From NCBI GenBank assembly GCA_021776515.1, contig JAJFFS010000007.1:1-64000 (forward strand): a stretch of 64,000 nt of DNA. Direction: 5' to 3'. Of this stretch, positions 10,660 to 14,192 are shown piece by piece. Made by a program: the position numbers and the translations under genes. This DNA comes from Robiginitomaculum sp. Its GTDB lineage: Bacteria; Pseudomonadota; Alphaproteobacteria; Caulobacterales; Maricaulaceae. How positions within the stretch are numbered: the first letter of the stretch is position 1; each line of letters opens with the position of its first letter. Under the pieces are notes generated by a model, which worked only from the letters and a program-made list of their open reading frames with translations, searched no databases and was not told the origin of the DNA.

Positions 10660-12135
10660 TCACAGCAGTTTTTTGCGCAATATCTCGTTCACGGCTTGTG
10701 GATTGGCCTTGCCTTTACTGGCTTGCATGACCTGGCCGACAAACCAGCCCAGCGTTTTGGGCTTATCCTTGACCTTGGCGGCCTGATCCGGATTGGCGGC
10801 AATTATCTCGTCAATCATGGCCTCAATGGCGCCGGTATCGGTGACCTGTTTCAGTCCTCGCTCTTCAACAATAGCTTCTGGGTCTCCGCCCTCGGTCCAG
10901 CAAATTTCAAACACCTGTTTGGCAATTTTCCCCGATATAACACCATTGGAAATCATACCAACAATGGCCCGATTGGCAGCTGCTGAAACCGGGCTGTCGC
11001 TAATCTCGACGTTTTCCTTGTTCAGCTTGCCAAACACCTCGTTCAACAACCAGTTGGCGGCCAGTTTTTTGTCGTTTCCGTCAGCCACGTCTTCATAATA
11101 AGCGGCTTTTTCACGATCGCTAACCAGCACGCTGGCGTCGTATTCGGAAAGGCCATACTCAGAAACAAAGCGGATTTTCTTGTCGTCCGGCAGTTCGGGA
11201 AGGCTGGCCTTGATCGCCGCCAGCCAGTCTTCGCTTAATTTCACAGGCAATAAATCCGGGTCAGGGAAATAACGATAATCATGGGCATCTTCCTTGGAAC
11301 GCATGGTCCGTGTTTCGCCCGTGTCGGTGTTATACAGCCGGGTTTCCTGATCTATCTCGCCGCCATTCTCCAGAATTTCGATTTGGCGGCGGGCTTCATA
11401 TTCAATGGCTTGCTGGATAAACCTCATGGAGTTCAGGTTCTTGATTTCGCAACGCGTACCCAGATCGCCGCCGGGGCGACGCACGGAGACATTCACATCG
11501 GCGCGTAAATTACCTTTTTCCATATCGCCATCACAGGTGCCTAAGTATCGCACCAAAGCGCGCAATTTTCGCACATAGGCGGCGGCCTCGCGGGCTGAGC
11601 GCATGTCGGGCTTGGATACAATTTCCATCAGCGCCACGCCGCAACGGTTCAGGTCAACATAAGTGGCATTGGGGTCAAGATCATGAATGGATTTGCCTGC
11701 ATCCTGTTCCAGATGCAGCCGTTCAATGCCAACCGTGATGCTCTCACCATCGCCAAGTTCAACCAGCATTTCTCCCTCACCAACAATGGGATGGTAAAGC
11801 TGACTGATCTGATAGCCCTGAGGCAAATCAGGATAAAAATAGTTTTTGCGATCAAAGCGTGAAAACGCATTAATCTGCGCCTTCATTCCCATGCCGGTAC
11901 GCACGGCTTGCTCTACGCAATACTCATTAAGCACAGGCAACATGCCGGGCATGGCCGCATCCACCAAAGACACTTGCGTATTTGGCTCGGCGCCATACCC
12001 CGTAGCCGCCCCAGAGAACAATTTGGCTTTTGAGGCAACCTGGGCATGGATTTCCAGCCCGATGATGATCTCCCAATCACCGGTGTCTGTGGTGATCCAG
12101 TCTGATTTGTCGGCAATGCGTTCCGCTGTAAACAT
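10660..12135 (-). CDS. gatB: Asp-tRNA(Asn)/Glu-tRNA(Gln) amidotransferase subunit B
   Basis: GatB is the kinase and tRNA-binding subunit of the GatCAB complex, which amidates mischarged Glu-tRNA(Gln) or Asp-tRNA(Asn). The start of the core is [20 protein letters not shown] (about 21-40), followed by [36 protein letters not shown], the phosphate-binding [12 protein letters not shown] and a C-terminal YqeY-like domain that ends in [11 protein letters not shown]. The length, 491, is normal. Its upstream neighbour gatA is separated by an inserted DUF559 gene, and the first five codons (MFTAE) are duplicated 505 bases upstream. Confidence 0.97.
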
Positions 12136-12205
12136 TTGTTGTCTTTCCGTTTTTTCTAGTCCTCCCCCTATATGGGGGAGGTGCCCCTTCGGGGCGGAGG
12201 GGGTG
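12121..12205. repeat. 85-bp direct repeat, copy 1 (contains the gatB start)
   Basis: Identical in 84 of 85 positions to 12626-12710; the single difference is A versus T in the hairpin loop. It covers the first five gatB codons, the gatB leader, and one complete two-hairpin palindromic unit (12161-12205). Confidence 0.97.
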
Positions 12206-12569
12206 TTGTGGTCAGATGTTCGGTTATTCGTGTCAATACGCCCTCCATATTTTGATCTATTTCAGTGTTCCAAAACCGCAGAACGGTAAACCCTTCTGTA
12301 TTCAGTTCTTTGTCACGGAAAGCATCCCGTTTTTGATGGTCTTCATTATTATGTTGTCCACCGTCAATTTCAATTACCAATTTCGATGTGTAACAAATGA
12401 AATCAATGATATAGCCTTGAAAAGGCACCTGTCGGCGAAAATGACAGCCCTGTTTTTTAAATGTTTTCAGGTGGACCCAAAGTTTGACTTCTTGTGGCGT
12501 CATATTCTTGCGCATGGTCCGCGCCAGATTTTTTAACCGGTGTGTCACCCCCTCCGCCACACCAAACAC
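12168..12569 (-). CDS. DUF559 (VSR-like) endonuclease-domain protein
   Basis: DUF559 proteins share the PD-(D/E)XK-like fold of very-short-patch repair endonucleases. Here the signatures are [30 protein letters not shown] (catalytic Asp), [12 protein letters not shown] and [12 protein letters not shown]. The maximal frame starts at GTG 12569. GTG 12548, which sits at the inner end of the palindromic unit behind GGAGGGG, and ATG 12515 are more natural starts. The last residues ([14 protein letters not shown]) and the stop codon are encoded by the palindromic repeat itself, so the tail is not an evolved protein part. Biological role unknown. Confidence 0.85.
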
Positions 12570-12602
12570 TTTGGTGAGGCACCTCCCCCATGAAGGGGGA
12601 GG
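12546..12602 (-). repeat. Inverted copy of the two-hairpin palindromic unit
   Basis: Inverted relative to the copies at 12161-12205 and 12666-12710. It shares the CACCCCCTCCGCC and GGCACCTCCCCC blocks and the GGGGGAGG end, with a substituted but still self-complementary inner hairpin. Confidence 0.9.
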
Positions 12603-12625
12603 ATAAAAAATGTTGTAGCCATATA

Positions 12626-12710
12626 TTCCGCTGTAAACATTTGTTGTCTTTCCGTTTTTTCTAGTCCTCCCCCTTTATGGGGGAGGTGCCCCTTCGGGGC
12701 GGAGGGGGTG
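12626..12710. repeat. 85-bp direct repeat, copy 2 (pseudo-start of gatB)
   Basis: Carries an ATG and the codons FTAE of gatB in the original context, followed in frame by unrelated sequence. It is presumably the original gatA-gatB junction or its duplicate. It ends 9 bases from the gatA stop codon. Confidence 0.95.
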
Positions 12711-12719
12711 AGGGAACTC

Positions 12720-14192
12720 TCACCACCACTTGTTCGGTTTGGCGTTAAAGCCTGCTGCGCGTTCCAGCGCACCACCAACGGCAAAGCAGGTTTCTTCATC
12801 CAGTGCTTTGCCAATCACCTGTAAACCCAAGGGTAAACCGGCATTATCAAGGGTAGCGGGTATGGAAATACCCGGCAGGCCAGCCAGATTAGCGGTAACG
12901 GTGAAAATATCGTTCAGATACATCTGCACCGGGTCATTATAACGCGCGCCGATCTTGAAGGCGGCGCTTGGGGCAGTGGGGGTCAGCAGGGCATCGCAGG
13001 TTTCGAAGGCTTTTTTGAAGTCTTCGGCAATGCGTGCGCGCACTTTTTGGGCGCGGATGTAATAGGCATCATAAAACCCGGCGGAAAGCACATAGGTGCC
13101 GATCATAATGCGTCGCCGTACTTCTTCGCCAAAACCTTGCCCGCGTGTTTTCTCGTAGGTTTCGGTCAGGTCGGCCCCATCAACGCGAACCCCATAACGC
13201 ATGCCGTCATAACGGGCGAGGTTGGATGAGGCTTCCGCCGGGGCGATAATGTAATAGGCGGGCAGGGCGTATTTGGTGTGTGGCAGGCTGACATCAACAA
13301 TTTCGCAGCCTTCTGCGCGTAGCCAGTCCATGCCATCGGCCCAGAGCTTTTCAATCTCGCCGGGCATGCCATCGACACGATATTCTTTCGGCACGCCAAT
13401 ACGCATACCCTTGAGCGAACGCGTGCAGGCGGCGGCAAAATCGGGCACGTCTGCCTTCAGCGATGTGGAGTCTTTGGGGTCATGGCCGGACATGGACCGC
13501 AAGAGTATGGCCGCATCCTCGACAGTGCGGGTAATCGGACCGGCCTGATCCAGTGATGAAGCAAAGGCAACAATGCCCCAGCGCGAACAACGCCCATAGG
13601 TGGGTTTTACCCCCACCGTGCCGGTAAAACTGGCGGGCTGGCGGATGGAACCGCCGGTATCGGTTGCCGTGGCACCCAGGCAAAGCTGCGCGGCCACAGC
13701 GGAGGCAGAGCCGCCAGACGAGCCGCCTGGTACCAGTTGTTGGGTTTCGCCATTAGCGCGCCATGGATTAACCACAGGCCCGAAAGCGGAATTTTCATTG
13801 GATGAGCCCATGGCGAACTCATCCATGTTCAGCTTGCCCAGCATAACCGCGCCATCGCGCCATAAATTGGCACTGACGGTGCTTTCATAATGCGGGGTAA
13901 AGTCACCCAATATTTTACTACCCGCCGTAGTGCGGGTGCCGTTTGTGCAAAAGAGATCCTTGATCCCAAGGGGTATGCCTTCCAGCGCCCCGACATCACC
14001 CATTGCACGCCGGGCATCAGAGGCATCAGCCATGGCCAAAGCGGTCTCGGTGGTTGTTAGCAGATACGCATTCAGCTGATCGGCATCTGCAATGGCGTCC
14101 AGATGAGCCTGGGTTAACTCACGTGCAGAAAAGTCCTTGCTTGCAAGTCCTTTAAGGGCGCCCGCCAGGGTAAGTTCATTTAAGGTACTCAT
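12720..14192 (-). CDS. gatA: Glu-tRNA(Gln) amidotransferase subunit A
   Basis: GatA hydrolyses glutamine (or asparagine) and passes ammonia to GatB. It shows the amidase signature with the Ser-cisSer-Lys triad: Lys78 in PLGIKDLF, Ser158 in [14 protein letters not shown] and Ser182 in [11 protein letters not shown]. The length, 490, is normal. Its ATG overlaps the gatC stop by one base (TAATG), so the two are translationally coupled. The next gene of the operon in the usual order, gatB, is 585 bases downstream because of the DUF559 insertion. Confidence 0.97.

Follow-up and report, generated by a model that had tools for sequence, protein, structure and literature searches.

A DUF559 nuclease gene with palindromic, mirror-box ends is a probable mobile module in Robiginitomaculum and other bacteria

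We analyzed a 64,000-nt stretch of Robiginitomaculum sp. DNA (assembly GCA_021776515.1, contig JAJFFS010000007.1, positions 1 to 64,000; hereafter the window), in which a gene for a Vsr-like PD-(D/E)XK nuclease of the DUF559 family lies between gatB and gatA and is bounded by palindromic units. This gene with its palindromic ends is a mobile module that is widespread in bacteria, and we came across the design of its repeat nowhere in the open-access literature searched. Comparing sequences across genomes, we find an association of gene and units, inverted ends, covariation of unit and protein, turnover of the occupied sites, and a mirror covariation within the unit. We favor, at a probability of roughly 0.55, the reading that the module is a small mobile element, consisting of the nuclease gene with its palindromic-unit ends and accompanied by non-autonomous units, and that the nuclease acts on the folded units. 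The nuclease as the mover and a DNA triplex as its signal appear to be the best-supported readings.

The site in the window is flanked by gatB (10660-12135) and gatA (12720-14192), both on the reverse strand, as is the open reading frame (ORF) of the nuclease (12168-12569; 133 aa, GTG start), whose domain lies at about 12213-12530. Unit 1, on the gatB side (12161-12205, forward strand), consists of a hairpin (12161-12181), a linker hairpin (12182-12195), and a box GGAGGGGG (12196-12203), which we call the mirror box. Unit 2, on the gatA side of the nuclease gene (12546-12602, reverse strand), is inverted relative to unit 1 and has its hairpin at 12582-12602, a linker hairpin of different sequence at 12556-12581, and its mirror box at 12548-12555. 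The original prediction, made from the window sequence, had described these two inverted units around DUF559 between gatA and gatB, and they are indeed present: the core CCTCCCCCNNNNNGGGGGAGGTGCC has three matches in the window, all exact with up to three mismatches allowed, against a mean of 0.00 in 100 shuffles. The listed start and stop of the ORF are both inside the flanking units, so the ends of the ORF read into them. A third unit and a direct repeat go beyond what that prediction discussed. Unit 3 adjoins gatA (12666-12710, forward strand; hairpin 12666-12686, linker 12687-12700, mirror box 12701-12708) and matches unit 1 except at one base. The two are contained in an 85-bp direct repeat on the forward strand, whose left copy (12121-12205) comprises the first 15 bp of gatB, the gatB leader, and unit 1, whose right copy (12626-12710) comprises a copy of the same 15 bp and leader with unit 3, and whose two copies are 99% identical. 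The stems of the window units are CCTCCCCC and fully paired. A larger element carrying the gene as a passenger was considered for the window and rejected; in a family search that covered the listed ORFs of at least 80 aa, leaving overlapping frames aside, only DUF559 was matched.

In the 2.57-Mb genome to which the window belongs, palindromes of the form CTCCCCCN{3,8}GGGGGAG occur five times and all five flank its two DUF559 genes, while the reversed form of the pattern occurs 0 times in the whole genome. The second DUF559 gene, on contig C19, is 37% identical to the first and shows the same layout with other inner hairpins.

The window protein scores 127.8 bits against the PF04480/DUF559 family model (cut-off 20.6). 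At an E value of 1, it matches DUF559, MTES_1575, DUF2726, and three weak unrelated families, and no transposase family, HUH/Y1 included. Residues R20, E27, Q47, D56, E67, D69, G70, H73, R85, and R98 are invariant in 58 DUF559 sequences, and E27, D56, E67, D69, and H73 are of the catalytic kind expected from the superfamily. The AlphaFold2 model (predicted local distance difference test score of 89.3) matches the fold of 3hrl, then that of the Vsr-fold homing endonuclease I-Bth0305I (PDB 3r3p; E 1.8e-4), and more weakly that of Vsr (E 0.14). Of the solved relatives whose biology is known, I-Bth0305I, likewise a mobile-gene nuclease, is the closest in both fold and profile; unlike the present protein, it is intron-encoded ("Mobile intron protein"), and we know of no palindromic ends for it. 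Escherichia coli Vsr (1vsr and 1cw0) has the same fold (ranks 10-11) with a weak sequence match (E 0.52), and we know of no link between Vsr and palindromic units.

Palindromic ends are found on DUF559 genes at large. We compared the 350-nt flanks of DUF559 domains, with domain ends taken from the profile, to shifted control windows in the same loci, using samples from the order (30 loci), from named genomes of several phyla (67 loci), and from the class (26 loci). Duplicates between samples (L091, L104, L124, and L172) were removed and control windows were not deduplicated; 10 of 80 and 2 of 29 loci dropped out for want of full flanks or a domain hit. Inverted similarity of at least 28 between the flanks occurs at 15/30, 39/67, and 10/26 DUF559 loci versus 0/58, 1/734, and 1/54 control windows, and hairpins (stem of at least 8) in both flanks occur at 18/30, 39/67, and 12/26 loci versus 0/58, 5/734, and 1/54. 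The named-genome sample is the best 80 of at least 578 confirmed relatives, and its query had a C-terminal tail reading into the unit, which could favor unit-bearing loci; the order and class samples were drawn with a query free of this tail, but the best matches were taken there too. An earlier version of the test, in which BLAST ends ran into the unit (16/71 inverted at 28 or above versus 0/609), was replaced by this profile-bounded version. In the order set of 116 DUF559 domains, with multi-copy loci from among the matches listed and the contained copies L048, L052, L071, and L073 excluded, hairpins (stem of at least 7) stand on both sides of 85 domains and on at least one side of 111. Most of the other DUF559-flanking stems have one C/T-rich arm. 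Such ends as a general trait of small nuclease genes were rejected: GIY-YIG control genes of the class, for which 23 of 30 loci were usable and 7 too short, show both-flank hairpins in 0/23, though they are not wholly repeat-free (inverted similarity of at least 28 in 3/23 versus 0/46 control windows).

The unit has a fixed order of pyrimidine arm, loop, purine arm, linker, and box, and the box is the purine arm reversed but uncomplemented, with T permitted for A. Examples of arm and box are GGGGGAGG with GGAGGGGG, GGAGAAGG with GGATGAGG, GGGGGAAG with GATGGGGG, GAGAGGGG with GGGGTGAG, and AGAGAGGG with GGGTGAGA. Mirror boxes were counted where a pyrimidine-rich arm faces an all-purine 8-nt partner, and only for arms that are not mirror-symmetric, because symmetric arms cannot separate a mirror from a direct copy. 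For hairpins near DUF559, a full mirror is found on the gene-ward side in 126/182, compared with 19 direct copies and 13.4 for random permutation, and on the outer side in 43/181, compared with 9 and 5.6. At 13 loci outside Alphaproteobacteria by record title, the mirror is present in 20/26 (direct 3, random 3.8). The same is seen away from the gene: 76 CCTTCTCC hairpins were found irrespective of DUF559 or box, and 71 of them lie in fetched stretches (mostly about 0.95 kb) that contain no DUF559; of these 71 dispersed hairpins, 64 are accompanied by a mirror box on one or both sides (direct 3, random 4.1). A direct-repeat box was rejected, with 20/183 direct versus 127 mirror. In an initial test with one hairpin per flank, three arm types lacked a mirror preference; the later count took all hairpins on both sides. 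Across 182 boxes from the two sides in which all G positions match, an arm A is faced by A in 247 cases, T in 105, C in 14, and G in 8. In most arm types, the T that replaces A keeps to one position, and the next base is usually G.

The linker is constrained in another way. Among 127 linkers, 26 have at most 6 nt; of the longer ones, 90 contain an internal stem of at least 4 and 11 do not. For the unit type of the window, 36 of 52 distinct inner segments (69%) contain a perfect stem of at least 5, versus 4.9% of shuffles. The sequence of the inner hairpin is free while its self-complementarity is kept, so the original prediction was correct in remarking on a hairpin of divergent sequence that remains self-complementary, and the remark holds generally.

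In a triplex of the antiparallel purine motif, the third strand mirrors the purine strand and places G on GC and A or T on AT; if the other strand formed a pyrimidine-motif triplex instead, T for A would be mismatched. To our knowledge, no other base pairing predicts a mirror covariation. As sequence potential, the units follow the rule of an intramolecular purine-motif triplex (mirror; G opposite GC, A or T opposite AT), and the mirror box therefore suits the antiparallel purine third strand of such a structure, keeping register with the hairpin, to whose base either a short linker or a closed hairpin would return it. We infer from this pattern that the unit may fold as an intramolecular purine-motif triplex. 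A G-quadruplex as the cause of the G-rich box was rejected, because it gives no reason for each A to sit at its mirrored position. It is possible, though we doubt it, that the box instead serves to bind the nuclease or a host protein, and the fixed place of the T, usually with a following G, is what a sequence-specific contact would give. However, a protein that reads the arm would find in its mirror no copy of it, direct or inverted, and yet the box changes along with the arm in about ten arm types, and the linkers are mostly 2-6 nt or self-complementary, as the geometry of folding back needs. On the triplex reading, we tentatively suggest that this large, phylum-crossing repeat class may consist of fold-back triplexes spread by dedicated DUF559 nucleases that read three-stranded ends.

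The states of the same sites in relatives support the modularity and mobility of the module at the level of sequence. The gatA-gatB junction was compared in 15 of 18 genus genomes (G012, G016, and G017 have no usable junction), with DUF559 presence confirmed by profile and solo units and unit types read by eye. The junction is empty (10 bp) in G011 and G013; holds a solo unit of type A in G005 and, in degenerate form, in G001, or of type B in G007, G004, and G008 (in the last beside other genes); holds DUF559 with type A units in G000, G002, G003, and G014 or with type B units in G010 and G009; and holds a decayed DUF559 with type B units in G015 and G006. The sisters G009 and G014 (support 97/98) have a similar upstream flank and different modules, and the sisters G002, with a module, and G013, with an empty junction, are joined with support 100/99. 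On a gatB tree of 17 genomes, which includes two empty-junction members of other genera, the junction states need 11 changes, compared with a mean of 11.3 for shuffled labels. The two genes had been called normally adjacent, and this holds in part: their spacing is 10 bp in two same-genus genomes and 2-3 bp in two other genera, but in other genomes of the order it ranges from 14 to more than 1200 bp, or no gatA lies within the 1.5 kb fetched.

The flank of the C19 site was found in 17 of 18 genus genomes, and the site contains DUF559 with units in 4/17 (G000, G005, G001, and G006), a solo unit in 1/17 (G015), and neither at the junction in 12/17, some of which hold other short genes. Read by eye, the solo unit of G015 fuses the left edge of the left unit of G006 with the right edge of the right one, the product expected of a deletion between direct repeats or of the reverse event. 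In G003, one of the 12 (L208 3178-3388), a second DUF559 with a unit, cut by the end of the fetched stretch, was observed about 1.3 kb from a C19-type junction, at the far end of the neighboring thiolase gene.

A third site comes from G069, which contains two DUF559 modules at two places that are 98.8% identical over 672 bp. Their identity stops at the palindromic arrays, and each module has a same-orientation unit pair on both sides. The left flank of one site is present in 18 of 19 genus genomes, and relatives there have a unit pair without DUF559 (G364, G128, and G064), other palindromes (G083 and G363), or only 1-31 bp (8 genomes), while the right flank is absent nearby in G138, G358, G356, and G365. 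The flank of the other copy was found only in G069 among the 19 genus genomes, so that no empty site is available there. The mobility proposed originally is thus supported by three sites that occur in empty, solo, and full form, and also by the near-identical second copy. The opposite outcome, in which all relatives carry the gene by descent and the units are not linked to DUF559 elsewhere, was looked for and not found: not all relatives carry DUF559 at the junction, and such palindromes are linked to DUF559 genes elsewhere. A DNA search for plasmid copies of the module returned none, and by protein its plasmid relatives are 43 records, all below 60% identity. As a separate observation, the intergenic site of the G069 module is occupied in G083 (L313) by a CGTCATCC-like palindrome that differs in class from the DUF559-type units of relatives, and the site may be a hotspot for unrelated palindromes.

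In the mechanism that we propose, the element would consist of the Vsr-like PD-(D/E)XK gene with palindromic ends, together with non-autonomous solo and paired units. By folding back, the mirror box would supply the third strand of an antiparallel purine-motif triplex, and the nuclease would recognize the folded unit and nick or cut there. Recombination by the cell would then copy the module or a lone unit into new sites and into sites already holding a unit, in a homing-like manner, and recombination between same-orientation units would leave solo units. The action of the nuclease on the units, the formation of the triplex, and the copying step are the predicted parts of this scheme.

Homing without transposition, in which the nuclease cuts solo units, the break is repaired from a DUF559 copy, and new sites are seeded otherwise, would also account for solo units and full modules at the same sites in relatives and for modules flanked by same-orientation units, and I-Bth0305I is itself a homing endonuclease. 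We regard it as unlikely, since module ends can abut an apparently empty site (G001 versus G010, by eye), and the solo pair of G364 at the G069 site has the opposite unit order and another spacer (by eye), and is thus not a simple precursor.

Enzyme and repeat covary, and this bears on whether the nuclease moves the units. Among 150 genomes of the order, which contain 0-421 units each, the median is 13.5 units in 112 genomes with DUF559 versus 1 in 38 without (Mann-Whitney p 3e-9), and the number of units follows the number of DUF559 genes (Spearman 0.60), positively in each of the five families tested (rank correlation 0.37-0.63, p ≤0.044). Of 181 class genomes, 15 contain CCTTCTCC hairpins, and DUF559 is present in 14/15 of these versus 47/166 others (Fisher p 9e-7; DUF559 status from a 190-genome survey applied to the 181 genomes). 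Between genomes, stem similarity follows protein similarity (Mantel r 0.36, with 0/2000 permutations as high), and when units are permuted within genomes (35 multi-copy genomes), the Mantel value of 0.365 compares with a permuted mean of 0.177 (0/5000 as high); common descent of gene and units contributes to this agreement. These results tell against a mobile module in which DUF559 is a passenger or parasite, its repeats being copied by recombination, template switching, or an unrelated transposase, and the nuclease serving, for example, in mismatch repair. A passenger would not have to fit its ends, whereas here the unit type goes with the protein even inside single genomes. Ordinary recombination could produce the same-orientation units and the solo derivatives (G006 versus G015), and two of the points set out below also speak for a passenger, namely the units in genomes without DUF559 and the proposed repair role of a Caulobacter relative; even so, we consider this explanation rather improbable. 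A vertically inherited, ordinary gene between two transcription terminators, for which the strong intergenic hairpins at gene ends could be taken, is refuted for the sites examined, where empty, solo, and full states are intermixed among close relatives, and by the two near-identical copies in G069 and the rarity of such ends in control windows and control genes.

Several observations weigh against the explanation that we favor. At least one pattern unit is present in 20 of the 38 genomes without DUF559, 8 of the 112 genomes with DUF559 hold none, and linked descent of gene and units could alone give part of the covariation. In the order set, 31/116 DUF559 domains have no hairpin on at least one side and 5 have none on both. 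Same-orientation flank similarity of at least 28 is also raised (7/30, 14/67, and 7/26 versus 1/58, 5/734, and 2/54), indicating that a simple inverted arrangement does not hold at every locus. The genome of the window also contains units of other types: a wider pattern (CCTCYCCCN{3,6}GGGRGAGG) has six matches there, one more than the exact form, and a solo unit at C20:48249 (CCTTCTCC arm, TTG linker, and GGATGAGG box) has no DUF559 within 2.75 kb. No fixed short target-site duplication of the kind left by a classical insertion sequence was seen in the junctions read by eye, at two sites only, and the 85-bp repeat of the window includes an entire unit; gain and loss are unpolarised. The units could also be moved by another enzyme. 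Finally, the Caulobacter DUF559 protein VsrA (CCNA_02930), which is reported to cause an SOS response in vivo in the absence of ScmA methylation, is proposed there as a mismatch-repair enzyme of the very-short-patch type (PMC12907096); the word "palindrom" is absent from that text.

The element resembles the RAYT proteins with their GTAG repetitive extragenic palindromic (REP) sequences and REPINs, in which a small standalone DNA enzyme also lies between inverted palindromic repeats. RAYT-linked REPs also occur as dispersed solo and inverted-pair copies, and the type of repeat follows the enzyme (in part PMC3733652). A gene between two inverted palindromic repeats is found in the window and is common, though not universal, elsewhere; dispersed non-autonomous copies are found as well, but the five exact-type units of the window's own genome all flank DUF559. 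The enzyme is an HUH Y1 transposase there and a PD-(D/E)XK Vsr-like nuclease here, and the GTAG tag is absent from the three window units, which carry a mirror box. The comparison is one of analogy and not of kinship, and the best reading is that the module resembles RAYT/REP in its working without being a member, having no HUH/Y1 enzyme and no GTAG tag. The original suggestion that the nuclease mobilizes the palindromes as RAYTs act on REPs is supported only indirectly, by frequent pairing, unit-type covariation, the homing-endonuclease-like fold, and the invariant residues, and its RAYT part stands as analogy only. The CGTC REPs of Alphaproteobacteria are, according to PMC3733652, palindromic, often in inverted pairs, and said to lack a dedicated transposase, with an unpaired CGTC, TGTC, or CCTC tag and stems starting A-T. 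By that description, the window units, with C/T-rich paired arms and a mirror box, belong to a different class. Repeats on both sides were also observed at two of the 23 GIY-YIG control loci (L225 and L228), those of L225 being of a TGTCAT type resembling the CGTC REPs, and another nuclease family may be paired there with another repeat class. In the parts of two REP surveys that were accessible, "nuclease" is absent from PMC12306157, and "endonuclease" and "DUF" are absent from PMC5082802. We found no report of a DUF559-palindrome link or of mirror-box repeats in the open-access literature, the mirror box not itself having been a search term.

E. coli K-12 carries a DUF559 gene, ycjD, with units on its 3' side, read by eye, and no strong unit in the 120 nt before the gene. 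Counting partial matches, a 59-base query holding the ycjD-side unit hits each E. coli genome at a median of 18 places, and the ycjD region is at least 80% present in 3333 of 5426 E. coli genomes. The repeat beside ycjD may be the "box C" element; for E. coli box C, nothing was found in the open-access literature at the terms used. Downstream of ycjD (L326 2041-2407), a partial copy of the ycjD 3' end lies between two units, by eye, as if a second DUF559 gene had decayed. YcjD is a PD-(D/E)XK member (PMC1189080), and ycjD and eefRABCD alternate at one E. coli site (PMC12817139). If the preferred reading is true, DUF559/YcjD proteins would gain a role, the tens to hundreds of repeats in some genomes would be accounted for, and sequence covariation within a naturally occurring family of repeats would provide a readout of triplex formation. 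The proposed mover, a dedicated nuclease of an unrelated family, is testable in Caulobacter and in E. coli K-12.

Two further observations concern DUF559 loci of other bacteria. A Weeksellaceae record (L139) has long direct repeats around DUF559 (score 180), of a kind other than the C/T-rich units. In Xanthomonas and Thermomonas (L117, L122, and L135), DUF559 with type B units lies just before a gene that we take, from its start, to encode homogentisate dioxygenase, in both genera, and this site seems to have been kept for long or used repeatedly.

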